NCBI RefSeq assembly: GCF_000344805.1
Contig: NC_020453.1
Span: 8,200,166 to 8,264,165, forward strand
Length of the DNA stretch: 64,000 nucleotides
Direction of reading: 5' to 3'
From: Bradyrhizobium oligotrophicum S58
Lineage (GTDB): Bacteria > Pseudomonadota > Alphaproteobacteria > Rhizobiales > Xanthobacteraceae
Position 1 is the first letter of the stretch. Every line of letters starts with the position of its first letter. This document shows positions 7,902 through 26,491 of this stretch, piece after piece. The translations under genes and the position numbers were made by a program. The notes beneath the pieces are model-generated. The model was given only the letters and a program-made list of their open reading frames with translations. It was not told where the DNA came from and searched no databases.

Positions 7902-7903
7902 CG

Positions 7904-9250: not shown

Positions 9251-9273
9251 CCGTCCTGCAAGGAGCGATAGAT

Positions 9274-10190: not shown

Positions 10191-11525
10191 TCAGAACATC
10201 CGTTGCCGCAAGGCGAGCCGGACGAACCATCCGAGCGTGCGATAGATTTCAAGCTCGGTGTCGACGAGCGGCAGAATTCTGCGCAGGTAGATCGAGGCCA
10301 TATGCAGGGCAGCGATTGGTTGCGCCATCTTCCAGGCCTGCAGCGCGACGCCTCGGCCCAGCCGCTGTTGCCAGGGCTCGAGATAGGCATCACGCATATG
10401 GTTGCGCAGGCGTGGATCGCGCGACATCGGCACCGCGATGCCCTCCGCCATCAGCAATGGCAGCGTGCTGAAGAACGGGCATCCGATGGTCGCATCCGAC
10501 CAGTCGAGGAACCGGGCGTTGTTCTTGCCGGAAAGGATGTTGGGCGCCCACAAGTCACCATGGTCGATCGAGACCGGGAGGTTGGCGACATTCAGTTCGG
10601 CGATCAGTCCGCTCAGCCGCGGCCAGGCGTGATGCAGGCGTTGCAAATGATGATCGCTCAGGCCGGCCAGCGTACGGGTGACGCGCATGGGCTCATCGCG
10701 CAGAGCGCCAATGTCGGCTTCGATATCGGTGAGATCAAGCGGTGGAATCCCGCGCGCGATGAAACGGTCCACCGCACCGCTCGCATCCAGCTGCAGGCGT
10801 CCGAACTGCGCGGCGGCTTCGATCCAGGCGGACGGCGCGCGACGGGCCTCCAGCGTCGGCTCGGAATAGGCATCCATCAGGAACCCCGAGCCGGCCCGAT
10901 AGCGCGCCACCAGATGCGGGACATGATCCGGCGCGATCCGCATCAACAGGTCGATCACGTCGGCCTCGACATTGAGCGGCGCCGGCGAACATTTGAAATA
11001 CCAGGTCGCACGCTCCGCTGTGACGCGGGCGAGCCAGGCGATCTCCCAGCTCCGCAGCTGCTCGACCCGGAGCACCCGCCCTGCACCCAGGCGATCCGCG
11101 GTCTGCTCCAGCCACCGGACCGCGGCCGCTGCAAAGCCCGCCTTCCACCACGGCCGGTTACCCGCGCGCGGTCGCATCGCGTGCCCGAGATCGAACAGTT
11201 CGCCGCGCGGCGAGACTGCGAACGGCGTGATGTCCGCGCGGTCGATGATGCGATAGGCACGGGAGGCGCGCTCGAGCGGGCCGGCAGCTTCGAGCAGATG
11301 GATCTGGCTGCGCGTGTCCCGGCCTCGTGGGTCGGTATGACGCCGCAGACAGCGCAGCATATAGACCGGCAGCCGGAGCTGCCGCTGGACCAGAGCGATG
11401 AATTCGGCGACTTCACCGGACGCGACGGCGGGCGCACGGATCTCCGGCAACGCCCCGGTGTTGCGATCGACCAGCAGGCGGCGGCCGGATGGGTCGACAA
11501 CAGCGATCAAATGCGCGATCTTCAC
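10191..11525 (-). CDS. APH-fold phosphotransferase (small-molecule kinase) 1 of the cluster
   Basis: A 444-residue protein with a C-terminal aminoglycoside/choline-kinase-type domain. SIDHGDLWAPNILSG (HGD-x4-N catalytic loop) is followed by ARFLDWSDATIGCP, the metal-binding Asp position. The first 150 residues are not part of the standard kinase fold and include HLIAVVDPSGRRLLVDRNTG, which looks like a nudix-like or MutT-style beta region, so this may be a two-domain protein. The start codon is GTG. It is the last gene of the leftward operon, 93 bases after the radical SAM gene. A second APH-like kinase is in the same cluster. The substrate is unknown; phosphorylation of the cluster product or an intermediate is inferred from context. 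Confidence 0.8.
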   Translation of the reverse strand: MKIAHLIAVVDPSGRRLLVDRNTGALPEIRAPAVASGEVAEFIALVQRQLRLPVYMLRCLRRHTDPRGRDTRSQIHLLEAAGPLERASRAYRIIDRADITPFAVSPRGELFDLGHAMRPRAGNRPWWKAGFAAAAVRWLEQTADRLGAGRVLRVEQLRSWEIAWLARVTAERATWYFKCSPAPLNVEADVIDLLMRIAPDHVPHLVARYRAGSGFLMDAYSEPTLEARRAPSAWIEAAAQFGRLQLDASGAVDRFIARGIPPLDLTDIEADIGALRDEPMRVTRTLAGLSDHHLQRLHHAWPRLSGLIAELNVANLPVSIDHGDLWAPNILSGKNNARFLDWSDATIGCPFFSTLPLLMAEGIAVPMSRDPRLRNHMRDAYLEPWQQRLGRGVALQAWKMAQPIAALHMASIYLRRILPLVDTELEIYRTLGWFVRLALRQRMF

Positions 11526-11618
11526 GGCTTGTTCCAGTGCCGGGCGCTGCCACGATATGTGCGGAAGATCATCTGGACAATTCCGCTTCGGCGACCGGAC
11601 GTCGCGGCGCGGCAGGCC

Positions 11619-13232
11619 TCATACGAGCTGGATGCCATGGCTGCTGACGAGCTCGGACACACGGTTCCGGTAGTCGAACGCCTGCTCGATCGTGACGGCG
11701 GGACAGCACCCGCGCATGAAATCCAGCAGCAGCTCATCGGTGTCGATCATGTCCTCTTCGGCGTACTTGCCCTGCACCGACCGCAGATAGTCGTAGTCGA
11801 CCTCCAGGCCCAGCCTGCCCGCGGCGTCGCGAGCGGAGCTTGGCATGCGCAGGTAGTCGAACGCCAGCGATCCCGGGTTGGGATACAGCAGGTTGACGGT
11901 GATTTCCATGAAGGCCTGCGCGTGGCGCTGCAGGCAGTCGTCCAGAATCCTGAAATTCGTCTCCATGATGTCCGGCGTGATCCCGAGATGCGTGACGATC
12001 AGCCCGGCACCGATCCGGGCGCCGCGCTGAGCCGCGCACGCGACCGCTTCGAGATTGTGCTCAAGCATGTCCTGCGAGCCGTTGCGGCTGGCGGAAATCC
12101 CCTTGTTCATCGCCCGGAGCGAGATCGTCGAGAAGGCCTCCAGGCCGATCCAGAACGTGTCGTAGTTCAACTGCTCCATCATCAGGTCGATGCGATGCAG
12201 CTTGTTGGCCTTGAAGGCGTCGGCGCGGGCGTAGCACAGAAAGCGCGGGCGATCGTCGCGGTGCATGTCGCGATACCAGTCCGGAACCCGCTCGGCCATC
12301 CGGTTCAGCAGCGGCCAGAACGTCAGCGGCAACTCGTCGGTCGTGACAAAGAAGTAGTTGTAGCCCTGCTCGACGGCGCTGCGGATGATGGCCCAGGCGC
12401 GCTCCGCATCGGCGCCGATCATGGCCCTGCTGCCGGGATTGATGGCGCAGAAGTCGCATGCGTTCAGGGGGACGCCGTAATCGTTTCGCCGGCCGCCGAA
12501 CTTCAGGCACCCCCGCGCGAACTCGATGGTCACACCGCGCGCGCCGCGAGCAGCGAGCGACGGCATGCTGCGATGCTGCTCGGCCAGATAGCGCGCGTCA
12601 TGGTCGAACGGCCCGCGGGTGAGCGAGTAGTCGACCATCGGGAGCCGGTTAAACTCCTCGGGATCCTCTTCGTTTCTGGCGATCCTGCCGTTGTTGGCCG
12701 GATCGCGAAACACCAGCCCGGGGTAACGGCCGAGATCGACGACGCGGCGCTCGGCAAGGTCGGCCATCAAGCGGCTGAAGCCCTCGACGACATCATTGCC
12801 GTAGAAACCATAGTCGAACGCGGCACGGCGCCGCATCGCGATCCGCCAGATCGCCGAGAAGCCGTCATTGCCGAGCACGGTATGAATGTTGGGATCGAGC
12901 CGCTTGACGCGCTCGGCAATCCGGGCGGAGGCGACATAATTGGCGGTGTAGATGCTGAAGCAGACCGCAAACAGCCGCGGCGCATGCGCTTCCAGATAGG
13001 ATATCAGCTCGTCGTTGCCGGTGACCGACGCGTCGAAATATGTCACCTGATGGCTGAGGCCGCGTGCGGCGAGCTCCGTGCGCAAGGCCGTGCCGAGGGT
13101 CAGCAGACCGAGATTTGGAAAGGCGTTGGCCTGGTAGGGCTCGGCGGCCTCGTCGAACAGCGTCGAGGCGCTGTCGGCGGCATTGATCAGGACGATCTCT
13201 TTCGTCGCAAGCGATCGGACAGGCGCATCCAT
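11619..13232 (-). CDS. B12-binding radical SAM protein with extended Cys motif
   Basis: A 537-residue protein with an N-terminal B12-binding-like Rossmann region (about residues 10-180; NLGLLTLGTALRTELAARG, VLGNDGF) and a radical SAM domain. The iron-sulfur motif is unusual. Cysteines at about 242, 259 and 262 form C-x16-C-x2-C, where the radical SAM norm is C-x3-C-x2-C. The context (RGC...ACDFC) is otherwise typical. Later elements are normal: FFVTTDELP, MMEQLNYDTFWIGLEAFS and RGARIGAGLIVTHLG. The ATG has GAGGG seven bases upstream. It is co-transcribed with the deoxyhypusine-synthase-like gene (11-base gap). The reaction is unknown; methylation or rearrangement is common in the family. Confidence 0.85.
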   Translation of the reverse strand: MDAPVRSLATKEIVLINAADSASTLFDEAAEPYQANAFPNLGLLTLGTALRTELAARGLSHQVTYFDASVTGNDELISYLEAHAPRLFAVCFSIYTANYVASARIAERVKRLDPNIHTVLGNDGFSAIWRIAMRRRAAFDYGFYGNDVVEGFSRLMADLAERRVVDLGRYPGLVFRDPANNGRIARNEEDPEEFNRLPMVDYSLTRGPFDHDARYLAEQHRSMPSLAARGARGVTIEFARGCLKFGGRRNDYGVPLNACDFCAINPGSRAMIGADAERAWAIIRSAVEQGYNYFFVTTDELPLTFWPLLNRMAERVPDWYRDMHRDDRPRFLCYARADAFKANKLHRIDLMMEQLNYDTFWIGLEAFSTISLRAMNKGISASRNGSQDMLEHNLEAVACAAQRGARIGAGLIVTHLGITPDIMETNFRILDDCLQRHAQAFMEITVNLLYPNPGSLAFDYLRMPSSARDAAGRLGLEVDYDYLRSVQGKYAEEDMIDTDELLLDFMRGCCPAVTIEQAFDYRNRVSELVSSHGIQLV

Positions 13233-13243
13233 CACGGCGCCCT

Positions 13244-14212
13244 CTATCTACCGAGCAGGTAGGCGAAGATCAGTGGGGCGACGATCGTGGCGTCGGACTC
13301 GATGACATATTGCGGGCAATCGCCCGCGATCTTGCCCCAAGTGATCTTCTCGTTCGGAACCGCGCCGCTATAGGAGCCGTAGCTCGTCGTGGAGTCGCTG
13401 ATCTGGCAGAAGTACTTCCACTCCGGGACGTGCTCCTCCAGGTCCTGCCGGATCATGGGAACGACGCAGATGGCGAAATCGCCGGCGATGCCGCCGCCGA
13501 TCTGGAAGAAGCCCATCGGATGCCGGGCCGATCCCTCGCGATACCAGTTGGCGAGCTCCAGCAGATAGTCGATCCCGCCCCGCATCGCCGCCGGCGACAT
13601 TTCGCCTCGGATACACAGCGACGTGAAGATGCTTCCGAGCGTCGAATCCTCCCACCCCGGAACGAACAGCGGCAGCGAGCGCTCGCAGGCCGCGACAAGC
13701 CAGCTGTGCTCCAGGGGAATCTGATAGTGCTCCTTGAGCCGGCCGCTGCGGATCAGCTCATAGCAGAATTGATGCGGCAGCTTCGGCTTCCCCTCCTGCT
13801 TCGCATCGCGCCAATGCGTCTCGATCAAATGCTGGATTTTTCGGATCGCGTAGTCTTCCGGGATGCAGGTGTCCGTGACCCGGTTCAGCCCGCGCTCGAG
13901 CAGCTCGACCTCCTGCTGCTTCGACAGATAGCGATAGCCGGGCACGCGAACGTAGCGGTCATGGGCGACGAGATTGAACAGGTCCTCCTCGAGATTCGCC
14001 CCAGTGCAGGTGATCGCATGCACCTTGCCGGCCCGGATCATCTCCGCGAGCGACAGACCGAGTTCCGCCGTGCTCATGGCTCCGGCGAGCGTCAGCATCA
14101 TCCGCCCACCGGCGTTCAGGAATGTCTCGTATCCCTGCGCCGCGTCCTTCAGGGTGGCGGCATTGAAATGGCGAAAGTGGTGATCGATGAACGCACGGAT
14201 CTCGGCCGCCAT
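13244..14212 (-). CDS. Deoxyhypusine-synthase-like (aminobutyl-transfer family) enzyme
   Basis: A 322-residue member of the deoxyhypusine synthase family, NAD-dependent enzymes that cleave spermidine and move its 4-aminobutyl group. Visible family elements are MMLTLAGAMSTAELGLSL near the start, AITCTGANLEEDLFNLV, FVPGWEDSTLGS, FQIGGGIAGDFAICVVPM, YCQ-like SDSTTSYGSYSGA, and the active-site lysine in ITWGKI at about residue 294. Bacteria lack eIF5A, so the acceptor must be something else; homospermidine synthesis or transfer to a cluster intermediate are the obvious options. The chosen ATG begins MAAEIRAF and is preceded by GAGAGGGGG. It is first in the leftward operon, divergent from the DUF3326 gene. 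Confidence 0.88.
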   Translation of the reverse strand: MAAEIRAFIDHHFRHFNAATLKDAAQGYETFLNAGGRMMLTLAGAMSTAELGLSLAEMIRAGKVHAITCTGANLEEDLFNLVAHDRYVRVPGYRYLSKQQEVELLERGLNRVTDTCIPEDYAIRKIQHLIETHWRDAKQEGKPKLPHQFCYELIRSGRLKEHYQIPLEHSWLVAACERSLPLFVPGWEDSTLGSIFTSLCIRGEMSPAAMRGGIDYLLELANWYREGSARHPMGFFQIGGGIAGDFAICVVPMIRQDLEEHVPEWKYFCQISDSTTSYGSYSGAVPNEKITWGKIAGDCPQYVIESDATIVAPLIFAYLLGR

Positions 14213-14376
14213 GTGTCCCCCTCTCGCCGGCGGCGCCGAAGATTGACGCCCCACTTTAAGGTTGTAAACGACAATATATCATACTACAAGTTTATATCGG
14301 CATTGGCGATGGTCTTCTCGAGTACTGGATCGGCTTACAGCGCGCTCAAGCGGTCGGCTGGCCGGAAGGAGGTCGG
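14213..14376. promoter_or_regulatory. Divergent promoter region of the biosynthetic cluster
   Basis: This 164-base gap separates the two divergent operons. It contains an AT-rich core (14260-14300) that stands out in the GC-rich surroundings, beginning GGTTGTAAACGACAATATAT. GGTTGTAA followed by ATATATC resembles a stretch upstream of speD (26617-26635). The arms TTGTA and TACAA (14262-14266 and 14284-14288) form an imperfect dyad. The rightward operon has AAGGAGG just before its first ATG. Promoters for both operons probably sit here, but exact -35/-10 boxes cannot be assigned. Confidence 0.5.
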
Positions 14377-15735
14377 ATGGAGGCTCATGAGATCTTTCTT
14401 GATCTTCCGATCAAGCGCAGCCACGGCGACCTCATAGCTTATTTTGCTGATGCACTGACCTCGCGACTGCCGCGGGATGTCGTCCCGATCCGCTTCGTCG
14501 TCACCGAAACGACCGGCGAGTGCTATCGCTGCGAGGTCGGCGTCATCAGCGGAGGTCCGGCCGGGCTGATTGACGACCGGCTCGGCATCTTCCGTTTCAG
14601 GGATCGCAAGATCCACGGTGGCGACGGTTTCAACGTCGTGTACATGGTGCCGACCGGCATCGGTGCCGAAATCGGCGGACACGTCGGCGACGCCGGACCA
14701 GCAGCGCGGCTGCTTGCCACAACCTGCGACCGCCTCATCACCCATCCCAACGTGGTCAATGCGGCAGACCTCAACGAGCTCCCCGAGAACGGCGTCTATG
14801 TCGAAGGCAGCGTGATCTGCCGCCTGCTGATGGGCACGATCGGGCTTCAGCCGGTGCGATCCAACCGGATCCTGGTCGTGATCGGCGAGCACAAGGTCGA
14901 GAAGATCACTAATTACTCCATCAATGCCACCAACGCCGCCCGCGCATCCTGCGGCTACCAATGCACGGAGCTGCTGCGGCTGGATCCGCCGTTCGACATG
15001 AAGGCCTATTTCACGTCTTCCGGCAGGGCCGCCGGACGGGTCGAGCATCTGGAGCGGCTGCTCGATCTGCTGGCCGCGCGCCGCGGTCAATTCGATGCGG
15101 TGGCACTGAACACGATCATCGAATATCCCGAAGACGATATTATCGCCTATTACAACGGCCCCGACGATTCAGTGAACCCCTGGGGAGGCATCGAGGCCAT
15201 CCTCACCCACGCCGTCACCCATGCGCTCAACGTGCCGTCGGCGCATTCGCCGCAGCTGAACGAATACAAATCGATTCCGGTCGGCGTCGGACATCCGGTG
15301 ATGGCCGCGGAGCTGATTTCGGCCGCCTACTTGCAATGCATCCTCAAGGGACTTTCGCGCAGCCCGCGACTGATCGTCGATCCCGAGGCGATGCTCAATC
15401 GCAACGTGCTCACCGCCGCAGACGTCTCCTGCGTCGTCATGCCTGACCGCTGCCTCGGCCTGCCCACCCTGGCCGCGCTCCAGCAGGAGATCCCCGTCAT
15501 TGCCGTGCGAGACAGCACCAATCGCGCCCGCACCGATCTGTCGATGCTGCCATGGGCACCCGGCAAGCTGTTGTATGCGGAGAATTACCTGGAAGCCTGC
15601 GGCCTGTTGAGCGCGCTGCGTTCCGGTGTCGCCGTCGAATCGCTGCGCCGTCCGTTGCATCGGCTGGAGACCCCGATCATCAGGCCGTCGTGGGACATGG
15701 AGCCGGCGCAGGCCAGGTTGAGCGCTGCTGGATGA
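14377..15735 (+). CDS. DUF3326-family protein
   Basis: A 452-residue soluble protein. The stretch VPTGIGAEIGGHVGDAGPAA, followed by ARLLATTCDRLITHPNVVNA and NGVYVEGSVICRLL, matches the DUF3326 signature known mainly from cyanobacteria, plants and scattered bacteria; no biochemical function is established to my knowledge. The C-terminal half contains VVMPDRCLGLPTLAALQQEI and IPVIAVRDSTNRARTDL. The last looks like a nucleotide or cofactor-binding Rossmann-like end, which is an inference. It opens the six-gene rightward operon with a strong AAGGAGG. The next gene starts four bases after the stop. Its place beside PLP decarboxylase-like genes suggests it acts on an amino-acid- or polyamine-type substrate. 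Confidence 0.75.
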   Translation: MEAHEIFLDLPIKRSHGDLIAYFADALTSRLPRDVVPIRFVVTETTGECYRCEVGVISGGPAGLIDDRLGIFRFRDRKIHGGDGFNVVYMVPTGIGAEIGGHVGDAGPAARLLATTCDRLITHPNVVNAADLNELPENGVYVEGSVICRLLMGTIGLQPVRSNRILVVIGEHKVEKITNYSINATNAARASCGYQCTELLRLDPPFDMKAYFTSSGRAAGRVEHLERLLDLLAARRGQFDAVALNTIIEYPEDDIIAYYNGPDDSVNPWGGIEAILTHAVTHALNVPSAHSPQLNEYKSIPVGVGHPVMAAELISAAYLQCILKGLSRSPRLIVDPEAMLNRNVLTAADVSCVVMPDRCLGLPTLAALQQEIPVIAVRDSTNRARTDLSMLPWAPGKLLYAENYLEACGLLSALRSGVAVESLRRPLHRLETPIIRPSWDMEPAQARLSAAG

Positions 15736-15739
15736 GGCC

Positions 15740-16915
15740 ATGGCGTGCCCTCACGCAAACGTCGAGGCGCTGCTTTCCGAACTCCAGCCGTCGGAGCCGA
15801 TGCTTTGCGTCTGGCCTGACCGGATCGCCGCGCAACTCCGACGCTTTCAGGGCGGCTTCCCTGGCGAGGTCCTCTACGCCATAAAAGCCAATCCTCTCGC
15901 CTCCGTCCTTCGCACGCTGTGCGCGGCCGGGTTGCGGCATTTCGACGTCGCTTCGATTGCCGAAATCGAGGCCGTCACAGCGATCCGCCGCGACGCCGGG
16001 CTGTTCTTCCATAACCCCGTCAAATCACGCGACGCGATCCGCGTGTCGGCCAGCCTGCCGCAGATCCATAGCTTCGCCGTCGATCATGCCGATGAGCTGG
16101 CCAAATGCATGGCCGAGACTGACCGGCGAGATATCCAGATTGCCGTGCGGATGGCGACACAGCGCGCCGACGCGGCGCAGGATTTCAGCACCAAGTTCGG
16201 CGCGGCGCCGGCCGAGGCCGCACAAATCCTGCGCGCGGCCCATCAAGCCGGTTTTGCATGCGGCCTGACGTTTCACGTCGGCACACAATGTCGTAACCCC
16301 CAGGCCTATTCCGATGCGCTAGCGGCCTGCGGTGAAATCGCCGCCGTCGCGGGCGTTCCGCTGGCGAGCATCGATGTCGGCGGCGGCTTTCCGGCGGCGC
16401 ATGAGGGCGAGATCGTGCCGCCGCTGGAGACCTATTTCGATGCGATCGGACGCAGCTTCCGCGATCTCCATATCGAGGGATGCCGGCTGCTGTGCGAGCC
16501 GGGCCGCGCGCTCGTCGCCCAGGCCTGCGCGGTGCTGGTTCAGGTGGTACACCGCCGCGACGGTCGCCTGCATATCAACGATGGCGTCGCAGGCAGTTTC
16601 GGCGAACTCTCGTTTCTCGATCGCCGCGTGCCGGCGCGTCTGTACCGCAGGCGAGGGACCGACGTCCGGGGGGTGGACGGCGAACCGACCACTTTCACAT
16701 TGGTGGGGCCGCTTGCCTTCGACACGCGGGATGAGCTGCCCGGCCGTTACGCCCTGCCCGCAGATGCGCGTGAAGGCGATTGGATCCTGCTCGGCGAGTT
16801 GGGGGCTTACGCCACCTGCCTGGCGGCTGACTTCCTGGCCTATCGACAGCCGCTCGATGCGACGGTTGCAGAATGGCCATGGATCGATGCCCGGGAGCGC
16901 GATCATGCGGCCTGA
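15740..16915 (+). CDS. Fold-III PLP decarboxylase-like subunit A (keeps Lys, lacks Cys)
   Basis: A 391-residue protein of the ornithine/diaminopimelate decarboxylase (alanine racemase fold) family. VLYAIKANP carries the PLP-binding Lys at residue 49. HVGTQ, DVGGGFP, CEPGRA and GELGAY (the C-terminal Tyr) are also intact, so it should bind PLP. The partner-side motif that in ODC reads GPTCD, and supplies a catalytic Cys and Asp across the dimer interface, is here GPLAFDTRD, without the cysteine. Normal ODC-family length is about 390-430. The next gene overlaps its end and encodes a related protein with the opposite pattern of retained residues. Likely job: decarboxylation in polyamine-type chemistry, possibly only as a heterodimer. 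Confidence 0.88.
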   Translation: MACPHANVEALLSELQPSEPMLCVWPDRIAAQLRRFQGGFPGEVLYAIKANPLASVLRTLCAAGLRHFDVASIAEIEAVTAIRRDAGLFFHNPVKSRDAIRVSASLPQIHSFAVDHADELAKCMAETDRRDIQIAVRMATQRADAAQDFSTKFGAAPAEAAQILRAAHQAGFACGLTFHVGTQCRNPQAYSDALAACGEIAAVAGVPLASIDVGGGFPAAHEGEIVPPLETYFDAIGRSFRDLHIEGCRLLCEPGRALVAQACAVLVQVVHRRDGRLHINDGVAGSFGELSFLDRRVPARLYRRRGTDVRGVDGEPTTFTLVGPLAFDTRDELPGRYALPADAREGDWILLGELGAYATCLAADFLAYRQPLDATVAEWPWIDARERDHAA

Positions 16916-18113: not shown

Positions 18114-18979
18114 AACGATTGGGCGAGATCGAGCGGCGTCACGACATGACGCACGAACGCTTCTTCGGTGATTTCTTCCAACAGCGCCCGGTCGTGATGA
18201 CCGAGCAGATCTCGCATTGGCCGGCGCTCGCGGCCTGGGGGCCCGGCTACTTCAGGAGCCGTTACGGGCAGACGCCGGTTTGGCTCAGCCGCTACGATCC
18301 CTCATCCCAGCGGACCTTCCTGGAACAGAACATCGACCACCAATTCCGCGAAGGCACCATGGCGGAATATGTCGACTCCCTGACATCCGAGAACGGTCGC
18401 TACTCCATTCGCGAAAGTGTCGGCCTGCTGCAACGAAATCCGGAACTGCTCGACGACCTCGATCATTTCCGGCCGTTCGGCTGCGTTCACGAGCCTCCCG
18501 ACGATCAGTTCATGGCGCTCTGGTTCGCGCCGAAAGGAACCATCACGGGGATGCATATCGATGTCGGAGAGAATGTGCTGTTTCATCTGCACGGCCATAA
18601 GCACGTCCTGCTGTTCTCTCCCGACAACACCGCACTGCTCTACGAAGAAGATCTCTCTCAGCTCGACGCACCGGGACTTGCCGATCGTGTCGATTCCGAC
18701 ACCCTTCAGATGTGGCGTCACTACGTGCGCTGGAGCAAGGTCAACGCGTTCAATCCTGATTTCGAGCGATTTCCCCTGCTCGGCGCGTCGAGCTATCTCG
18801 AAGCGATCATCGGGCCCGGCGACGCGCTCTACATCCCCTGTGGATGGTGGCACACCGTCCGCTCGCTCGACGTCACGATCAGCGTGTCGAAATCGGTGTT
18901 CAAGGACGAGTTCCTGCGGCCAGCGCCGCCATTGACGGATGCCCGGCCAGTCGCAGCCACATGGGAGACGCGCTCATGA
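18110..18979 (+). CDS. JmjC/cupin_8 Fe(II)/2-oxoglutarate oxygenase-like protein 1
   Basis: A 289-residue cupin-like protein of the JmjC hydroxylase group. Iron ligands are in place: GMHIDV gives His149 and Asp151, and YIPCGWWHTVRSLD gives His248. HLHGHKHVLLFSP is the usual following strand with a basic residue for 2-oxoglutarate. It starts at a GTG overlapping the previous stop by four bases (GTGA); this start aligns with the ATG of the next gene, its tandem paralog. No signal peptide is present. It probably hydroxylates an intermediate or product of the cluster. About 20 extra C-terminal residues distinguish it from its paralog. Confidence 0.85.
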   Translation: MKRLGEIERRHDMTHERFFGDFFQQRPVVMTEQISHWPALAAWGPGYFRSRYGQTPVWLSRYDPSSQRTFLEQNIDHQFREGTMAEYVDSLTSENGRYSIRESVGLLQRNPELLDDLDHFRPFGCVHEPPDDQFMALWFAPKGTITGMHIDVGENVLFHLHGHKHVLLFSPDNTALLYEEDLSQLDAPGLADRVDSDTLQMWRHYVRWSKVNAFNPDFERFPLLGASSYLEAIIGPGDALYIPCGWWHTVRSLDVTISVSKSVFKDEFLRPAPPLTDARPVAATWETRS

Positions 18980-19791
18980 GATACGCGGGAACGATCGAAC
19001 GGGCTCCGGCGATGACGCACGAGCACTTCTACGACGCGTTCTTCCAGAAGCGGCCGGTCGCCATGCCGCAGAAGATCTCGCATTGGCCGGCGCTGACACA
19101 ATGGAGCCCGGAGTTCTTCAAGCGCAGCTATGGCGATCTGCCGGTGTGGTTGAGTCGCTATGACCCCCACTCGGAACGATCCTATCTCGACCAGCATATC
19201 GAATACGCCAGCCGCAAGACGACCATGGCCGACTATGTCGACGCACTGTCCGGAGACCACGGCTTTTTCTCGATCCGGGAAAGCATCGGGATGCTGCAGA
19301 GCCATCCGGAATTGCTCGAGCATGTCGACGGCTTCCGGCCGTTCGGATGCAGTAGCGAACCGCCCGCCAGCCAATATATGGCTCTGTGGTTCAGTCCGGG
19401 CCACGACACCACCGGGATGCATATCGATGTGGCGGAGGGATTGTTGTTCCACATCTACGGGCACAAACGGGTTATCCTGCTCGCACCGGATCAGACCGGG
19501 CTGGTCTATGAGGACGATCTGAACAAGCTCTATGCCAGGGGCCTCGAAGACCGGATTGATCCCGAGGATCTCGAGATGTGGCGAAACTTCGTCCGCTGGA
19601 GCAAGGTCAACCCGTTCGAACCGGACTTCGAGCGATTTCCAGCGCTGCGCGAGGCGACCTATTTCGACGTCGTCATCAACCCAGGCGATGTGCTCTATAT
19701 TCCGCTCGGCTGGTGGCATGCCGTGCGATCGCTCGATACCACGATCAGCATTTCCAAATCACTCTTCAAAGACGAATTCCTGCGCGCATGA
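18976..19791 (+). CDS. JmjC/cupin_8 Fe(II)/2-oxoglutarate oxygenase-like protein 2
   Basis: A 271-residue tandem paralog of the preceding gene. The two align without gaps over about 250 residues, with roughly half the positions identical. His149, Asp151 (GMHIDV) and His248 (YIPLGWWHAV) are retained, so both copies should be catalytically competent. Stop and start overlap as ATGA on both sides, giving tight coupling with both neighbours. Differences cluster around the substrate-facing strands (for example CVHEPPDDQF against CSSEPPASQY). That suggests two successive or site-specific hydroxylations rather than redundancy, though this is inference. Confidence 0.85.
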   Translation: MRYAGTIERAPAMTHEHFYDAFFQKRPVAMPQKISHWPALTQWSPEFFKRSYGDLPVWLSRYDPHSERSYLDQHIEYASRKTTMADYVDALSGDHGFFSIRESIGMLQSHPELLEHVDGFRPFGCSSEPPASQYMALWFSPGHDTTGMHIDVAEGLLFHIYGHKRVILLAPDQTGLVYEDDLNKLYARGLEDRIDPEDLEMWRNFVRWSKVNPFEPDFERFPALREATYFDVVINPGDVLYIPLGWWHAVRSLDTTISISKSLFKDEFLRA

Positions 19792-20822
19792 CGGGTCCCG
19801 ATCAACCTGCCGACTGGCAATGGTCCCTGGACCCGCCCCTGCTGCGGGACGCGTTGTCGCGCTTCGGATGCAAGCCAGAGACCGCCGAACCGGTCGGAAG
19901 CTTCATCAGCAAGGTCTACGCCTGCCAGCGCGAACACGACTGGATCGCGTTGAAGATCACGCCTGACTGGTTTCACGATCGGAACGAGATTCTCGCCGAA
20001 TTGGATTTCATCATCTTTCTCGATCGAAACAATGTGCCGGTGTTGCGCCCGGTGCGATCGGACGGCAATCAGCTGGTCGAAGTGATCCCGAGCGACGATG
20101 CCGATCTGCTGGCATATGCCTCGCAATGGATTGACGGCGAGGCTGTCGAAGGCCCGGACTGGACTGCGGATTACTTTCGGCGCGCCGGCGCCATGATGGG
20201 ACATATTCACGCTGCCTCGACGCTCTACCCGACCGTGAGGAAACGTCAGCGACGGCCGCACTGGGACCATGACGACTACTACGAGGAGAGGCTCGCCAGA
20301 CTTCCGGCCCGGCTGTCGCACATCGCGGCAAATGCCAGACAGCTGGTGGAGCGGCTGCGAGGCCTGCCGAGCGACCCCGCGCATTTCGGCTTGCTGCATG
20401 GCGACATGAACGTCGGCAATCTGCTGTGCTGCGATGACGGCAGCATGCGGGTGATCGACTTCGAGAACTGCTACTATGGCTGGTTCATGGACGACATCGC
20501 AGCGGCCCTGTACTACACCGCGCATGATCGCTGGGAATATTTTCCCGGCGATACCTACCTGCAATGGAGTGCCGCGAACGGGCTGGCGCCGGATGGCGCC
20601 GCGTTCGGCAACTTCTATCTGACGCATTTTCTCGAGGGCTACACCTCCGTTCGCCCGGTTGGCGGGGAATGGATCGCGCGGATACCCGACTTTCTTCATC
20701 TGCGGCATCTGGACGAGTTTCTGGCCAAGTTCGACGGGTCGCCCTCATTGTTCGATGCGGAAGGCAATCGTGCGACCCTCGAGAGCTACGTCCGCGAGCT
20801 CGAGGCCGGGATCTTCCTGTGA
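19788..20822 (+). CDS. APH-fold phosphotransferase (small-molecule kinase) 2 of the cluster
   Basis: A 344-residue kinase of the aminoglycoside phosphotransferase/homoserine kinase II type. An N-lobe with SFISKVYACQ and WIALKITP (the ATP-binding Lys) is followed by GLLHGDMNVGNLL (HGD-x4-N catalytic loop), then MRVIDFENCYYGWFMDDIA with the metal-binding Asp. It lacks the extra N-terminal domain of the other cluster kinase. The ATG overlaps the previous stop by four bases. It ends the rightward operon, 19 bases from the convergent radical SAM gene. The substrate is unknown. In antibiotic clusters such kinases often phosphorylate the product for self-protection, which is my working idea here. 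Confidence 0.82.
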   Translation: MTGPDQPADWQWSLDPPLLRDALSRFGCKPETAEPVGSFISKVYACQREHDWIALKITPDWFHDRNEILAELDFIIFLDRNNVPVLRPVRSDGNQLVEVIPSDDADLLAYASQWIDGEAVEGPDWTADYFRRAGAMMGHIHAASTLYPTVRKRQRRPHWDHDDYYEERLARLPARLSHIAANARQLVERLRGLPSDPAHFGLLHGDMNVGNLLCCDDGSMRVIDFENCYYGWFMDDIAAALYYTAHDRWEYFPGDTYLQWSAANGLAPDGAAFGNFYLTHFLEGYTSVRPVGGEWIARIPDFLHLRHLDEFLAKFDGSPSLFDAEGNRATLESYVRELEAGIFL

Positions 20823-20841
20823 CAGCCGCCGCGCGCCCCGC

Positions 20842-22305
20842 TCAGGTCTTGTCGCCGGCCGGCTTCCACGCCAGATCGTAGCCGGCGAAGTCCGGCACCG
20901 CAGCGCCGAGCACGTCCTGCGCAAACGGCCGGAAGTCATCCGGCGCGGCCCGCGAGATTGCAGCCGACCAGGCCGACGCAGCATCCTCCTCATGCCCCTG
21001 GCGCCGGACGATGTCGAGCATCACGCGCCTGCGGTCGGGCGTGATGCCGGGATGGGTGAGCACCCACTCCCGCATCCGCGCGTTGTGATCGATGTAGAGA
21101 CGCTCATTCAGCGCATCCAGCCGATGATAATAGTCCGCCGGCGTCATCTGAAGCGGCAGCCGCATCGACAGGATTTCGTTGCCGATACAGAGATAGGAAG
21201 GGTCGAAGATCCGGCCCTGCGCCAGATGGTCCTGGTGAAGGCCGGTTTCCGGCAGCGAGAACGGCACGAACACCATCGGCAGCACGTTGGGGCACTTCTC
21301 GGTCAATTCGACCAGGTAGGACGTCGTCTCCTGTTCGAAATCCCTGGCACTGAGGCCATAGATATAATTGACGATGATGAAGAACGGACATTGCGCGCAG
21401 ATATCGATCAGATCCGACCGCCTGTTCTTCGCGTAGTCGGCATGGATGTTTTCAAGTCCGACCTCCAGCAGCACGAAACCGGCGTCCGTGAACAGGCGGC
21501 GCATCTCCGGCTGCCGGAGCGCCGACGACGTCGTGAATCCCATTGCGTAGCGATCGCCAAGCCCGCTCAGCCCATGCATGATGGCCTTGCCATGCTCGCC
21601 CAATCCAAACAGCGGATCGTTGAAGACGATCAGCTTCTCGTCACAGGATGCAATATCTGCAACCACATCGGCCGCGTCGATGGTTGAAAAGTTGGTCTCG
21701 GCATCGGTGCAGAACGAACAGGTATACGGACATCCCGTCGAGGCCAATGCGTTGCGAAAGCCTTGCGCGGGAACGAATCCCCGCGCCTGAAACTCCGAAT
21801 AATGCGGCAGGCGATCGATGGAACGCGTCGTCGCGTAGCTGCGCTGCAGCCTGCCTTGGCCCACGTCATCCAGGATCTGCAGGAACAGCGCCTGGTCGCA
21901 CTTCTTGACGATCGCATCGGCTCCGGCGCGGTAGCAATGTTCGGGAAAGCTGACCGCATGTGGACCGCACACCACGATGCAGCCATCGGTCTGGGCCCGA
22001 TAGGCCTCGATGGCGTTCTTCAGGGCATAGGCAGCAACGCTGAACAGCACGATGAAGACGACGTCGGCGGCGGCGCCGCGCCGGCGCGATTCCGGCTCCC
22101 AGATCACCTCGACCTCCGCGCCACGCTGGGCCGCCCACGCCGCGCAACTCAACAGCATGATGGACTGGCGATCGTCACGGGTATCGCTGCAATAGCGATC
22201 GATCGTGACCGGATATCCCGCGGCGAGATGCTCAAAGGCCACCCGCAACGGACGCGAGCGCTGGCCGCGTGCCCCGGGACGTGAGATCGTGCGGACCGCT
22301 CCCAT
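20842..22305 (-). CDS. B12-binding radical SAM protein 2
   Basis: A 487-residue protein with an N-terminal cobalamin-binding-type Rossmann domain (about residues 20-150; SIMLLSCAAWAAQRGAEVEV, IVVCGPHAVSFPEHC) and a radical SAM domain with the canonical motif GCPYTCSFC (Cys 192, 196, 199; C-x3-C-x2-C). Further elements are LIVFNDPLFGLGEHG, FVLLEVGLENI and FIIVNYIYGLSARD. The architecture is that of class B methylase-type radical SAM enzymes and related oxidoreductases. It is the last gene of the leftward speD operon, three bases after the desaturase. Unlike the first radical SAM protein of the cluster, its cysteine spacing is normal. Confidence 0.88.
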   Translation of the reverse strand: MGAVRTISRPGARGQRSRPLRVAFEHLAAGYPVTIDRYCSDTRDDRQSIMLLSCAAWAAQRGAEVEVIWEPESRRRGAAADVVFIVLFSVAAYALKNAIEAYRAQTDGCIVVCGPHAVSFPEHCYRAGADAIVKKCDQALFLQILDDVGQGRLQRSYATTRSIDRLPHYSEFQARGFVPAQGFRNALASTGCPYTCSFCTDAETNFSTIDAADVVADIASCDEKLIVFNDPLFGLGEHGKAIMHGLSGLGDRYAMGFTTSSALRQPEMRRLFTDAGFVLLEVGLENIHADYAKNRRSDLIDICAQCPFFIIVNYIYGLSARDFEQETTSYLVELTEKCPNVLPMVFVPFSLPETGLHQDHLAQGRIFDPSYLCIGNEILSMRLPLQMTPADYYHRLDALNERLYIDHNARMREWVLTHPGITPDRRRVMLDIVRRQGHEEDAASAWSAAISRAAPDDFRPFAQDVLGAAVPDFAGYDLAWKPAGDKT

Positions 22306-22308
22306 CGC

Positions 22309-23259
22309 TCAACCCGGCGCCGGCACGTTCGGCGACGCGTCGATATGACCGGACATCAGCCGGTTGCGCGTGCTGTTGACGAAGAACAGCATGCGGACAA
22401 AGGCGATCGGGTTGAACAGGATGGCGCTGTTGAGCGCGACCGAGACCGGCGCACCGTGATCCCGGTAGTCCGCTTCCCACGCGGCCTGCCGACGCGGCAA
22501 CTCGGTCCAGTAGATGCCGGGCGCGCGATGGTGGGTGAGATGGGTCGAGATATTGTGCAGATCGAGGGCGGAGAGGAATCGGCGGTAGCGGCTGTCGAGC
22601 GGAACGTAGGTGGCATAGCGATAGGGATCGGCGGGTACGCCGGGGACATGGTCGGTGTAGTTGTACACCGCTACCATCAGGGTCGATCCAACCCACGTCA
22701 CTGGAAGCCAGAACAGAACGGCCGCGCGCCAATCCAGCAGCGCCAGCACCGCGGCCAGCACCAGCGTCAGAACGAGGCTCGCGATGCATTCGACTTGGTG
22801 GCGCGCCTTCATCTCACGGAAGAACTGAAGAACGTGAAGCTCGCGCAGCGCCAGGCGAAGATAGGCCCAGATACTGGCGTGAGCGGCCGCATCGCGAACC
22901 AGCGTCGTGGTCGTATCGGCGTCGCCGTTGTTGAAGCGGTGATGATGGAAATGCAGGTACCGGTACCAGATCGCCGGCAATGGCAGGACGCAGAAGCAGA
23001 GCCGATGCGCCATGTTCAGAGCGGGACTGCGAAAGACCGGAAAATGCGTGGTCCAGTGCAGAATGGCTTCGAGACGTCCGGCCAGGATGCAGCCGACCCA
23101 CAGCATGATCAGTTTCGCCCATAGCGGTGCGGCCTCGAAGTGCCGGAACAGCAGCAGCAGGAAAGCGACGATCAACCCGAGATAGGCAACCAGCACGCCC
23201 CCGCCCCAGCGGACCGAGGACGCATCGTCTGCCGTCGCGCCTGCCGCCTTATCGGTCAT
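22309..23259 (-). CDS. Membrane fatty-acid-desaturase-type di-iron enzyme
   Basis: A 316-residue integral membrane protein. Two or more hydrophobic hairpins (VLVAYLGLIVAFLLLLF; CIASLVLTLVLAAVLALL) flank three histidine clusters: LHWTTHFP (H-x3-H), YLHFHHHRF (H-x2-HH) and STHLTHHRAPG (H-x2-HH). This is the metal-binding signature of membrane desaturases and hydroxylases. The start ATG lies inside the end of the PaaK-like gene (11-base overlap). It would introduce a double bond or hydroxyl into an acyl chain or an amine-containing lipid, and pairing with an acyl-activating enzyme suggests an acyl moiety in the product. The longer upstream frame is a shadow. Confidence 0.87.
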   Translation of the reverse strand: MTDKAAGATADDASSVRWGGGVLVAYLGLIVAFLLLLFRHFEAAPLWAKLIMLWVGCILAGRLEAILHWTTHFPVFRSPALNMAHRLCFCVLPLPAIWYRYLHFHHHRFNNGDADTTTTLVRDAAAHASIWAYLRLALRELHVLQFFREMKARHQVECIASLVLTLVLAAVLALLDWRAAVLFWLPVTWVGSTLMVAVYNYTDHVPGVPADPYRYATYVPLDSRYRRFLSALDLHNISTHLTHHRAPGIYWTELPRRQAAWEADYRDHGAPVSVALNSAILFNPIAFVRMLFFVNSTRNRLMSGHIDASPNVPAPG

Positions 23260-24670
23260 GGTCGACCAGCGAAATGGCGGCCTTGGTCTTGGTGCCGCGT
23301 GCATAGGGGATCGCCGCGACGATCTCGACGCCGACCTCGACGCCGTCGCCAAGCAGGCCCCGCATCCGCGCCTCGATCTTTTCGCGCGCCACATGATCGA
23401 TCGGGCCCGACGGGCTCGCGGCAGGAACCAGATAGACACCGACCCTGTCGCGGGCGTGCTGAACGATCTGGTACTGGATGCCGTTGACCGGAATGCGGGA
23501 CTCCAGCACCCAGTTGTAGGCATCGTCCATGATCGTGCCCGCAGGCACGATCATGCCCGATTGGGTGACGAAGCTGTCGCCGATCCGGCCCATCGGCTGG
23601 GAGATCCGGCCGAAGGTGCAACCGCATCGGCATCGCGTCTCGTTGCCGAGCGCGCTGGCGAAGTCACCCTGGCGATAGCGGATCAACGGCGTCGCTTCGT
23701 TGACGAGATTGGTGCCGACCACCTCTCCCATCTGATCCGTCGCGCATCTGCTGCCGGTGTCGGGATCGATGATCTCCAGAAAACACGCATCCTCTTCGAG
23801 ATGGTAGCTGCCGAACGGGCATTCGAGCGCGATCCGGATCAATTCCTCGCTCGAATATTCGTCGCAGATCGGCACCCCCAGCGCGTGTGACAGCTCCAGC
23901 CGTTCAGCACGGGTGGATGCCTCGGAATGGGTGATGACGAGCCTCACCCCGCATTCGGAGAGGTGGATGTGAGCGCGCGCCAACTCGCGCAGATAGCTCG
24001 GATAGAGGGAGATCACCGACGGTCGCTGCTCGCGAATGACGCGGCACGCCTGCGCGACCGGGGTGCGGGTCGACAGGAAATCCTGCGGAAACAGTCCGTC
24101 CGTCGAGCTGAACCACCAGGGGCAGGTGATGATGAAGAGCGTCGCATCGGCCGATCCCACCTGCCCGCCGCTCTGGAAGATGTTCTGCCGGGCCATCTGC
24201 AGATTTTCGAAATGCACGCCGTTCTCGCTGACCGCGAGATACACGAATCGCCCGGAGGATCCGGAGCTGGTGGTCATGAACTCGACGTCGTGCATGCTGC
24301 TGACCGAATGGTCCGGCCAGCCGGCGATGAGCTCGTCCTTGGTCAGGAATGGAAGGCGCTCGAAATCGGCCCAGCCCCGCAGGTCGGCGGGCGCAAATCC
24401 GACGGCACGATATTTCTCCCGATACAGTGGGACCGTCTCATAGGCGTGGGCGACGATCTGCTGAATGCGGCGAAACTGCCAATCCCGGATCGCCTCGATC
24501 GAGGCCTGCCGCAGCGCGACCATGCGGTCGAAATCGGCGTCATAGCGCTCGCGCAACTTGCGGTGATCGGACGCTGTTTCGGCCCTGATGAGATCGGGGC
24601 CGATCTTCGCCTCCATCCATCGCTCGCTATTCCTCGAATATGGGCCTTCGGTCGCGTCGGTACGATCCAT
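23249..24670 (-). CDS. PaaK-like adenylate-forming acyl-activating enzyme
   Basis: A 473-residue member of the ANL superfamily, closest in look to phenylacetate-CoA ligases and their relatives in secondary metabolism. The phosphate-binding loop is MTTSSGSSGRFVY. The YSSEELIRIALEC motif and TPLIRYRQGDFAS (the ribose/ATP Asp region) are clear. CRCGCTFGRISQ is the cysteine-rich turn seen in PaaK proteins, and a C-terminal lid domain follows (ending GTKTKAAISLVD with likely catalytic Lys residues). It activates a carboxylic acid as an acyl-adenylate, and may pass it to CoA or an amine. It lies in the speD operon, 25 bases after the phosphatase and overlapping the desaturase. Confidence 0.88.
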   Translation of the reverse strand: MDRTDATEGPYSRNSERWMEAKIGPDLIRAETASDHRKLRERYDADFDRMVALRQASIEAIRDWQFRRIQQIVAHAYETVPLYREKYRAVGFAPADLRGWADFERLPFLTKDELIAGWPDHSVSSMHDVEFMTTSSGSSGRFVYLAVSENGVHFENLQMARQNIFQSGGQVGSADATLFIITCPWWFSSTDGLFPQDFLSTRTPVAQACRVIREQRPSVISLYPSYLRELARAHIHLSECGVRLVITHSEASTRAERLELSHALGVPICDEYSSEELIRIALECPFGSYHLEEDACFLEIIDPDTGSRCATDQMGEVVGTNLVNEATPLIRYRQGDFASALGNETRCRCGCTFGRISQPMGRIGDSFVTQSGMIVPAGTIMDDAYNWVLESRIPVNGIQYQIVQHARDRVGVYLVPAASPSGPIDHVAREKIEARMRGLLGDGVEVGVEIVAAIPYARGTKTKAAISLVDHDR

Positions 24671-24695
24671 CGCGGGCTCTCGTGCTGGTCGTCAT

Positions 24696-26009
24696 TCAAT
24701 TATCGTTGCGGTCGCCGTGGCTCCTGGTGAGCGGGACCGGACAATACGACCCCGCGGTCCGGCCGCTTGCCGGCCCGGGCCAATCGGTCGGGCAAGGCGG
24801 CTCGTCGGGCTCGGATGTCGGCGGCTGCGCGGCGCAATAGGACGCGACGTCCGATGGCGGCTGACAGTCGGACGGCGCGGGCACACAGCCTTGCGGCACC
24901 TGCTGCCGATAGACATCGATCGGCGCACTTTGTTTGACGGAGTAGAAGCAGAACTCCATCTCGCGGCTATTGGCCACGACCAGCATCGCGCCGTGTGCTC
25001 CATTGTAGCGCTTCTGGCTGCCGGGCTGCACCGGACAGCTCTTCTGATCGTACACATACGGATTGCCGCCCAGACCATTGACGAAATATGGCATGCCCTC
25101 GATTTCGAGGCGCTCATAGGCGTGTTCGTGGCCGGTCAGGATCGACGTCGCGCACCATTGCTTGAAGGGCCAGCGCATCCAGGCGCCAGGCGCATCCTCG
25201 CGCGCGGTGGTATAGGGCGGGTGATGGAAGTACACCAGTTTCCATGGCGCCTTCGATGCCGCGAGCGCGTCCCTCAACCAGCCCGCCTGCTTGGAATTGC
25301 AGCAGGTCCCATCCTGCTCATGATAGTCGCTGTCCAGCCCGAACAGTTCGACCAGCGGACTTGGCGCGACGTTATAGTAACGCCCCTGCACCGGCGGCTG
25401 CGTGTTCGGCGAATATTGCTTGAGATAGTCGAAGAAATCCAAATACGGATAGGGCGTGCCCCAGGCATATTGAGGATCCTTGCGCACCGTTCCCCAGTCG
25501 TGGTTGCCGAGGGTCGGGAAGAACTTCTTCTCGCGGACGAAGTTGCCGTAGTGATCCGCGATGTTGCGCTTGATGGTGCTCTTCTTGCCGCTGTTGTAGT
25601 TGTCGTCCCCGACCGTGATCACGAAGTCGACCGAGAGCCGCTTGCGCCAGCCCTGAACCATCCTGGAGACGACGCCTTCGCATTGATACTTGCTGTAGCC
25701 GAAATCGCCGATCACGACAAAGCGGACCAGATTCGGGTCGGGCGTGATGCCCTTTCCGCAGGCGGCCAAATCGCTCTTGACCGGCTGCTCGCCGGCACTG
25801 CAGCTGACGGTGCGGTACTCGCAGCAAGGACAGGTCTCTTTCGCTTCGTTGCGGGCGTCCGCAAAGGAGCGTGCATCGCCCGCCTGCTGGGCCAGTAGCG
25901 GTGCCGACGGCCACGGCATCAGGACGACCGCGGCGAGGAAAGAACCACGGAGGAACGGCGGGCATCTGACAAAGGTCGAGGCGATACGGCGCAACCCGTC
26001 CGGCATCAT
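24696..26009 (-). CDS. Exported purple-acid-phosphatase-like metallophosphatase
   Basis: A 437-residue secreted protein. GGGAGG precedes ATGATG, and a signal peptide (FLRGSFLAAVVLMPWPSAPL, then LAQQA) follows. The calcineurin-like metal motifs are complete: VVIGDFGYSKYQ, VGDDNYNSG, LGNHDWG, YFHHPPY and GHEHAYER, in the order and spacing of purple/tartrate-resistant acid phosphatases. Extra cysteines flank the domain (CPCCEYRTVSC and the C-terminal Cys/Pro-rich tail), suggesting disulphides outside the cytoplasm. The start overlaps the speD stop. In a cluster with two small-molecule kinases, an exported phosphatase could activate a phosphorylated precursor after export. That link is inference. 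Confidence 0.87.
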   Translation of the reverse strand: MMPDGLRRIASTFVRCPPFLRGSFLAAVVLMPWPSAPLLAQQAGDARSFADARNEAKETCPCCEYRTVSCSAGEQPVKSDLAACGKGITPDPNLVRFVVIGDFGYSKYQCEGVVSRMVQGWRKRLSVDFVITVGDDNYNSGKKSTIKRNIADHYGNFVREKKFFPTLGNHDWGTVRKDPQYAWGTPYPYLDFFDYLKQYSPNTQPPVQGRYYNVAPSPLVELFGLDSDYHEQDGTCCNSKQAGWLRDALAASKAPWKLVYFHHPPYTTAREDAPGAWMRWPFKQWCATSILTGHEHAYERLEIEGMPYFVNGLGGNPYVYDQKSCPVQPGSQKRYNGAHGAMLVVANSREMEFCFYSVKQSAPIDVYRQQVPQGCVPAPSDCQPPSDVASYCAAQPPTSEPDEPPCPTDWPGPASGRTAGSYCPVPLTRSHGDRNDN

Positions 26010-26491
26010 CAATCCCTCCCGCCTACTCGCCGCGGCGTCGCCGGCACGATCGGGCTGATCGCCGATTGATCGGCGGCGACCGCGGCATCGGCGGCCGGCG
26101 CTCCCGTCTCCAACTCGAGCGAGTGGCTCAAATCCGTGGTGCGAAGCGATTTGGTCATGAACGCTCGACTGACCAGGTCGACGACAACCGACGGATTGAA
26201 CTTCCGGCAGGAAAACACATCCAGCACGAACTGGCTTTGCAGCGGCCAGGTATGGATGGCGCAATGAGAGGTCGAAAGAACCACGATGCCGGTGACGCCG
26301 CCTTCGTCCTCGAAGGGCTCGCAATTCATTCGCCGGATGTCCTCTTCGACCTCGTAGATATGAGGGGAGCCCAGCGCGCGCATGTTGAGAGCTTCGACCA
26401 GATCGTCCAGCAGGCCCTTGATCCGAGACATGCTGCGTAGCCGGTCGGGGTCGCCAATTCCGACCGCCTTGATGTGCCGCCCGAGGATCAC
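26009..26491 (-). CDS. speD: SpeD-like pyruvoyl decarboxylase (AdoMet decarboxylase family)
   Basis: A 160-residue SpeD-family proenzyme with a GTG start (MILGRHIKAVG, the usual opening). The self-cleavage region reads STSHCAIHTWPL. The pyruvoyl-forming Ser (75), the following His (80) and the catalytic Cys (95, in DVFSC) are all at the family's normal spacing. Two residues are unusual: the Glu that normally precedes the Ser is Thr, and IHTWPE is IHTWPL. The C-terminal 30 residues are an Ala/Pro-rich tail. It should make a pyruvoyl enzyme: decarboxylated AdoMet for aminopropyl transfer, or a different decarboxylation, since some SpeD homologs are reported to act on ornithine or arginine. It is the first gene of the leftward operon. 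Confidence 0.85.
   Translation of the reverse strand: MILGRHIKAVGIGDPDRLRSMSRIKGLLDDLVEALNMRALGSPHIYEVEEDIRRMNCEPFEDEGGVTGIVVLSTSHCAIHTWPLQSQFVLDVFSCRKFNPSVVVDLVSRAFMTKSLRTTDLSHSLELETGAPAADAAVAADQSAISPIVPATPRRVGGRD

Follow-up and report, generated by a model that had tools for sequence, protein, structure and literature searches.

What might 14 genes make that combine polyamine-type enzymes with oxygenases, kinases, and a secreted phosphatase? The question is raised by a locus of Bradyrhizobium oligotrophicum S58, at positions 10191..26491 of a 64-kb stretch of DNA (hereafter the window) that forms the end of the single 8.26 Mb contig. Open reading frames and domain profiles place these genes in three packed operons. 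Operon A (minus strand) encodes the kinase APH1, a B12/radical S-adenosylmethionine (SAM)-like protein (rSAM1), and a deoxyhypusine synthase (DHS)-like enzyme; operon B (plus strand) encodes DUF3326, ODC1, ODC2, JmjC1, JmjC2, and APH2; operon C (minus strand) encodes rSAM2, a desaturase, a PaaK-like ligase, a metallophosphatase, and SpeD. An earlier note, made from the DNA alone, described a polyamine-derived natural-product cluster of 13 genes; all of the families that it named are present, and its list sums to 14. We tentatively propose, as quite possible, a rare and probably horizontally acquired specialized-metabolite cluster built on a core of DUF3326 plus a decarboxylase, in which an amine would be hydroxylated by the JmjC oxygenases, phosphorylated by the APH kinases, and perhaps freed outside the cell by the secreted phosphatase.

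The DUF3326 protein (14377..15735, plus strand; PF11805, 294.9 bits, cut-off 25) offers the broadest view of this core. When named bacterial and archaeal genomes were scanned with a DUF3326 alignment, 252 stretches were confirmed; the best 80 (46-54% identity) were kept and span 18 phylum-level groups. A scan of viral contigs gave 60 loci (L088-L147), which are not independent events because some are near-duplicates. Partner genes were scored with profiles built from clusters of the neighbors around DUF3326. At 128 of the 140 loci a single decarboxylase type, out of three that are unrelated (SpeD-like, NspC-like, or phosphatidylserine-decarboxylase-like), lies beside or near DUF3326, and two types occur together at none of the 140. 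The partner is SpeD-like at 44 and NspC-like at 29 of the 80 genome loci; all 44 SpeD-like genes and 28 NspC-like genes lie at most 300 bases upstream of DUF3326, and one NspC-like gene is downstream. At 48 of the 60 viral loci the partner is SpeD-like, in 42 cases at most 300 bases upstream, and in 7 of the 12 viral loci that lack a SpeD-like gene (L091, L093, L094, and L098-L101) a phosphatidylserine-decarboxylase-like gene, absent from all other loci of the 140, adjoins DUF3326; one of these seven is on the opposite strand, and PF02666 was confirmed in all four that were scanned. In a tree of 147 DUF3326 rows, built by a quick method with approximate supports, the partner changes 13 times (minimum, 2), and its starred branches require no fewer than 7 switches for the SpeD label, 6 for NspC, and 2 for the third. 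Loci with one partner only, together with repeated partner changes on the tree, therefore lead to the conclusion that DUF3326 works with an exchangeable decarboxylase. The DUF3326 of the window falls with database proteins in a starred group of eight rows, and its neighbor is the ODC1/ODC2 pair, immediately downstream.

The three NspC-like proteins tested reach 252-330 bits with the carboxynorspermidine decarboxylase model (cut-off 409). The one DUF3326-linked SpeD-like protein tested matches the AdoMet_dc Pfam family (53.4 bits, cut-off 25) and scores 27.9 bits with the AdoMet decarboxylase model (cut-off 75.65); one viral SpeD-like protein tested did not match the latter model at 0.001, and the WPE motif of the T. 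maritima-type enzyme is kept in none of 22 aligned DUF3326-linked SpeD-like proteins. Among 45 DUF3326-bearing genomes searched, several of them drafts of uncertain completeness, a spermidine-synthase-family match is found in 28, many of these partial, and a DHS-family match in 8, so the DUF3326/decarboxylase pair depends on neither enzyme. In viral contigs DUF3326 and the SpeD-like gene form a recurrent two-gene unit, mostly without further conserved neighbors. Of the 80 genome loci, 24 contain a gene for a glutathionylspermidine-synthase-like ligase, 20 a gene that we take to be DUF350-like, and 19 one that we take to be DUF1190-like. An array of these presumed DUF350-like and DUF1190-like genes, the ligase, the SpeD-like gene, and DUF3326 recurs mainly in Rhodospirillaceae-type records (L014, L015, L016, L026, L028, L033, L038, and others); polyamine-ligase operons with DUF350 and DUF1190 are known from the available text of PMC11237479.

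An AlphaFold2 model of DUF3326 (predicted local distance difference test score, 83) gave no confident match to a known fold or solved structure, the GT-B glycosyltransferase fold having been considered. SAM and carboxyspermidine, on which the SpeD and NspC families naturally act, both bear a 3-amino-3-carboxypropyl group, and a substrate with an alpha-amino-acid end is common to all three decarboxylase families. Most simply, then, DUF3326 would make or use a molecule bearing a 3-amino-3-carboxypropyl-type group; alternatively, it may act on the free amine. A model for the former is found in microcin C aminopropylation, in which, according to the parts of PMC10491745 available, an amino-acid-bearing group is transferred and a pyridoxal phosphate (PLP)-dependent decarboxylase then trims it (MccD/MccE), with the reverse order left possible. 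The same transfer-then-trim sequence may apply to DUF3326 and its decarboxylase; MccD, however, is of SAM-methyltransferase type, whereas DUF3326 has no confident relation to a solved structure. A bolder version, which we consider unlikely as a whole, makes DUF3326 an enzyme of a new kind, which would transfer a chain bearing an amino acid, such as 3-amino-3-carboxypropyl, to an acceptor for the neighboring decarboxylase to trim. This route would be independent of decarboxylated SAM and SpeE and would occur across many phyla and in phages, the decarboxylases, of three folds, being interchangeable; at this locus, teamed with a split-site ODC1/ODC2 heterodimer, it would have been co-opted as the first step toward a new natural-product class.

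ODC1 (15740..16915, plus strand; PF02784, 125 bits; PDB 2plj, E 2.8e-40) is an alanine-racemase-fold decarboxylase subunit, and ODC2 (16905..18113, plus strand; PF00278, 36.7 bits for the longer open reading frame) is its paralog, 30% identical, which aligns with the C-terminal part of human ODC. Their active-site losses are complementary. ODC1 keeps the PLP Lys, the His, the Gly loop, and the Glu/Arg in alignment and has GPLAFDT in place of the GPTCD of ODC, the usual catalytic Cys being gone; in ODC2 Leu stands in place of the PLP Lys, and Cys, Ser, and Asp replace the His, Gly, and Glu, while the GPTCD motif and the Asp of NDG remain. Among the 26 aligned NspC-like rows, all have the Cys and 25 have the Lys (the other has a gap); of the two other ODC-family matches in the host genome, one has both. 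In ODC homodimers the PLP and Cys residue sets come from different subunits. Because the losses are complementary and homodimer sites are built from two subunits in this way, ODC1 and ODC2 are predicted to form an obligate heterodimer with one composite active site; they are probably two halves of one decarboxylase. Trypanosomes provide a partial parallel, in which AdoMet decarboxylase and DHS each need a catalytically dead paralog (the prozyme and the DHS paralog, respectively); activation there is conformational or allosteric in the accounts available, in contrast to the shared composite site predicted here (PMC5201418, PMC3663545).

The remaining polyamine-type enzymes lie in operons A and C. 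The SpeD-like pyruvoyl decarboxylase (26009..26491, minus strand; PF02675, 69.2 bits) is the sole PF02675 match in the genome and, when aligned with the AdoMet decarboxylases of PDB entries 1tlu and 1vr7, retains the pyruvoyl Ser along with the catalytic His and Cys, residues whose roles are taken from the available parts of PMC10407285. It also keeps HTWP, and two conserved Glu are changed, one before the pyruvoyl Ser and one after HTWP. Bacteria and phages have SpeD homologs that evolved into decarboxylases of arginine or ornithine (PMC10407285 and PMC9992855, as far as these texts were available); the arginine enzyme SpeDA has lost a conserved Pro, and the ornithine enzyme SpeDC has diagnostic Gln, Thr, Phe, and Tyr residues, as given in the former. 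The earlier note had proposed an aminopropyl/aminobutyl backbone built jointly by SpeD, the ODC-family proteins, and the DHS-like enzyme. An aminopropyl route by way of SpeD is not supported, since the protein stays below the AdoMet decarboxylase cut-off (TIGR03330, 56.6 against 75.65 bits), the two Glu are changed, and a search of this genome for SpeE gave three partial matches (best 55 bits) and none of full length; the backbone chemistry of the cluster probably differs from that proposal.

The DHS/SpeY-like enzyme (13244..14254, minus strand; PF01916, 142.3 bits, cut-off 27), whose true start may be an internal ATG about 14 codons in, is likewise the genome's sole match to its family. Alignment shows that it keeps the Lys of WGKI, the active-site Lys of deoxyhypusine synthase; its best NCBIfam match is PRK00770 homospermidine (NF001980, 124 bits), which does not reach the cut-off of 450. 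In the available text of PMC10407285 and PMC9992855, bacterial homospermidine clusters share with this locus a SpeD homolog without a clear SpeE, a DHS/SpeY homolog, and the use of decarboxylases of different folds for one job; they differ in that JmjC, radical SAM, kinase, ligase, and desaturase genes are found here and not in those accounts. DUF3326 does not occur in the main text of PMC10407285.

JmjC1 (18110..18979, plus strand; PF13621, 122.5 bits) and JmjC2 (18976..19791, plus strand; PF13621, 116.5 bits) are Cupin_8/JMJD5-like oxygenases, 60% identical, both with a visible HxD...H motif; the closest PDB entries to JmjC2 are the protein hydroxylases JMJD5 (E 9.9e-21) and JMJD7. The start of APH2 (19788..20822, plus strand), a small-molecule kinase with visible HGDMNxxN and DFE motifs, overlaps the JmjC2 stop, and it is well over the PF01636 cut-off of 23.2 bits (63.2); APH1 (10191..11525, minus strand), an aminoglycoside-phosphotransferase-like kinase with an N-terminal extension and a visible HGDxxxxN, falls just short (21.6). 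By profile, the earlier note's two B12/radical SAM assignments are weak. The rSAM1 protein (11619..13235, minus strand) has a B12-binding domain as its sole Pfam match (PF02310, 38.9 bits) and, by eye, atypical Cys spacing, and rSAM2 (20842..22305, minus strand) has a visible CxxxCxxC and no Pfam match at E 0.01; both score below the NCBIfam cut-offs, rSAM1 far below that of a radical SAM model (TIGR03975, 34.5 against 281.85 bits) and rSAM2 with a weak match (TIGR04013, 37.4 against 251 bits). Operon C also encodes a membrane di-iron enzyme of fatty-acid-desaturase type (22309..23259, minus strand; PF00487, 73.7 bits) with three visible His boxes, a PaaK/F390-type adenylate-forming ligase (23249..24670, minus strand) that has no Pfam match at E 0.01 and only NCBIfam matches below their cut-offs (NF045666, 127.4 against 300 bits), and a calcineurin-like/purple-acid-type phosphatase (24696..26009, minus strand; PF00149, 55.2 bits; PDB acid phosphatases, E 2e-6) that seems, by eye, to have a signal peptide. 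For the acylation step proposed in the earlier note, the 14 genes include neither an acyltransferase nor a carrier protein.

That note did not bring up the pairing of kinases with a secreted phosphatase. In streptomycin and viomycin producers, self-protection relies on an intracellular kinase and an extracytoplasmic phosphatase. By analogy with these systems, which also combine an APH-fold kinase and such a phosphatase in one cluster, the APH kinases and the exported phosphatase, the latter in operon C, suggest a protected precursor; the locus differs from them in that core genes for an aminoglycoside or a peptide are missing. Alternatively, phosphorylation might prepare the molecule for ring closure.

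On the reading favored here, DUF3326 and the ODC1/ODC2 pair would make or process an amine, DUF3326 either building an amino-acid-bearing intermediate for the decarboxylase to trim or modifying the amine released. ODC1 would give the PLP, and ODC2 the Cys and Asp of the facing subunit, so that a complete site would exist only in the heterodimer. The SpeY-like enzyme may then add or exchange an aminobutyl unit, the two JmjC oxygenases may hydroxylate the product, and APH2 may phosphorylate the new hydroxyl. Further decoration would fall to operon C (rSAM2, desaturase, PaaK-like ligase, and SpeD). One or both kinases would hold the compound phosphorylated in the cell until the secreted phosphatase frees it outside.

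In operon B a gap of 4 bases separates DUF3326 from ODC1 and each stop from ODC1 to APH2 overlaps the next start by 4-11 bp (the last four of five junctions, frames checked); the polyamine-type genes are spread over all three operons, with DHS in A, ODC in B, and SpeD in C. The earlier view of a polyamine-type set without nonribosomal peptide synthetase or polyketide synthase genes, and rare among kin, holds. Counting this genome in every case, DUF3326 is present in 1 of the 265 genomes searched from the genus and 1 of 391 from the family (this one), and in 4 of 397 from the order, where two of the others are about 50% identical and one is a weak partial match. The family profile matched 2 of 398 phylum genomes, the other being a short match with internal stops, and 1 of 14 control genomes (Synechococcus elongatus). 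The DHS-like gene is present in 4 of 149 relatives' genomes, the other three copies being 25-30% identical. Searched with the window's DUF3326 at 1e-5, neither 72,556 plasmid records nor 50,697 phage records gave a match; viral-type DUF3326 was not the query, so phage records with that type may exist. JmjC2 matched 31 plasmid records, all below 60% identity (22-28% among the matches listed), and SpeD matched 13 phage records (31-33% among the matches listed). The cluster is rare and was probably acquired horizontally. No published cluster with a matching gene set was recognized in the open-licence PMC literature, as judged from titles and the openings of abstracts.

Whether the genes stay together elsewhere, which the earlier note had made the test of its proposal, is answered in part. 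At the 80 distant DUF3326 loci (about 50% identity), DHS, ODC1, ODC2, JmjC, APH, and rSAM are found at none (tblastn, 1e-4); five loci each have one weak match, to the acyl-CoA dehydrogenase gene (twice), PaaK, SpeD, or the amidase gene. Close homologs do exist in the protein database for JmjC2 (75-83% identity), DUF3326 (75-96%), and DHS (84-96%), from jgi, ena, and lgn sources plus one ncbi name; one DHS homolog (P0018, 84% identical) is named Bradyrhizobium sp. The longest contigs listed are of equal size for a DUF3326 and a JmjC2 homolog (P0177 and P0136; 133053), a DHS and a DUF3326 homolog (P0019 and P0178; 2838), and a JmjC2 homolog and one of JmjC1 type, as typed from size and identity (P0139 and P0143; 32835), coincidences which suggest that each pair shares a contig; the 133053 contig is listed for no close DHS homolog. 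An apparent SpeD-DUF3326 fusion (P0181, 611 residues) was rejected, its extension repeating the protein's own DUF3326 N-terminal part, probably as an assembly artefact.

Other accounts of the locus can be weighed against this evidence. In one, which follows the earlier note, SpeD supplies decarboxylated SAM, the ODCs putrescine, and the DHS-like enzyme (homo)spermidine; methylation and hydroxylation of the latter, and its N-acylation with a desaturated acid activated by PaaK, then follow. The conserved catalytic residues of SpeD and the Lys of the DHS-like enzyme agree with such a route, as does the production of homospermidine by DHS homologs (SpeY) in other bacteria (PMC10407285 and PMC9992855, in the parts available), but the score of SpeD below the AdoMet decarboxylase cut-off, the merely partial SpeE matches found in the genome, the missing PLP Lys of ODC2, and a gene set with neither acyltransferase nor carrier protein make it unlikely. 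Chance juxtaposition of several unrelated small operons beside a type III secretion locus is rather less probable again: there are three separate operons, no sign of operon C was seen in a relative (its proteins were not run against the protein database), and the distant DUF3326 loci lack the other window genes apart from the five weak matches; yet polyamine-type genes occur in all three operons, the single DHS-family and single SpeD-family matches of the genome are both here, and the equal contig sizes tie operon A to operon B (DHS with DUF3326) and DUF3326 to JmjC2.

Two further readings have still less in their favor. SpeD-derived arginine and ornithine decarboxylases are known next to SpeY (PMC10407285, available parts), and the locus might be an ordinary polyamine supply, an acquired homospermidine/putrescine set that replaces host genes and has unrelated neighbors; this is improbable, since the host has the two other ODC-family matches, operon B genes overlap, and tandem JmjC, kinase, and rSAM-like genes would not belong there. 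Slightly more improbable still is a hypusine-like protein modification, with the DHS-like and JmjC enzymes acting on a protein lysine and the other genes supplying the aminoalkyl donor. The DHS family with its catalytic Lys and the nearness of JmjC2 to protein hydroxylases would fit, but the best NCBIfam match of the DHS-like protein is of homospermidine type, though below cut-off, the kinases, ligase, and desaturase better suit a small molecule, and the cluster holds no candidate target protein.

Several observations weigh against the favored reading of a cluster built on DUF3326 and its decarboxylase. At three of the 80 genome loci the contig continues but carries no partner (four others stop at a contig edge), and 5 of the 60 viral loci have none of the three decarboxylases; of these five, one has an ornithine-cyclodeaminase-family gene directly upstream of DUF3326 (L090:3939-4865), and the other four have no partner, the contig end cutting DUF3326 in two of them. 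In Synechocystis, DUF3326 is reported next to a ferredoxin gene (PMC4284462, available part); the neighbor survey covered groups other than cyanobacteria. The surveyed homologs are mostly 36-54% identical to the window's DUF3326 and mostly have the decarboxylase upstream, whereas ODC1 is downstream and belongs to another subfamily (NspC-like profile match, only 8e-7); the window's SpeD is 10 kb from DUF3326 and matches the DUF3326-linked SpeD profile at only 6e-5. ODC1 might be active alone despite its lost Cys, and no ODC2 relative was found in viral contigs, the one collection searched with ODC2. Co-occurrence in relatives rests on equal sizes of listed contigs; no such linkage was seen for operon C genes, whose proteins were not run against the protein database, and operon C, including the phosphatase, could be a neighbor rather than part of the cluster. 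No exporter is encoded among the 14 genes. Third-position G+C, in contrast, speaks to some degree for the favored reading, being 0.71-0.85 in the 12 cluster open reading frames listed and mostly 0.8-0.9 to the right of 26868, with overlapping ranges; but composition does not single out the cluster because the neighboring secretion genes are similarly low.

Those genes, of the rhizobium-type type III secretion system (SctV, secretin), lie directly to the left (window 1790-9894) and include SctV (5131-7131) and a Y4YQ-domain gene (4054-5061). To the right, an acyl-CoA dehydrogenase gene (26868) was ruled out as a member by near full-length DNA matches of 80-84% in several genomes of the genus, and an amidase gene (28161) by its identity as a formamidase (580.4 bits, cut-off 406); a third-position G+C of about 0.9 in both also counts against membership. 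In an empty-site comparison the dehydrogenase alone aligned in 4 of 4 relatives, and therefore no cluster boundary is drawn. No tRNA gene was found within the window. Farther right, a hybrid histidine kinase with an ethylene-receptor-like N-terminal domain is encoded at 30508-32214.

A cluster of this kind would probably be missed by finders based on core genes, and in its ODC1/ODC2 pair it offers a clean case of two paralogs that have lost complementary parts of the active site. The rule for DUF3326 reaches furthest and is independent of the cluster: a family present in 18 phylum-level groups and in viral contigs gains its first testable function class, as the nearly constant companion of a swappable decarboxylase.

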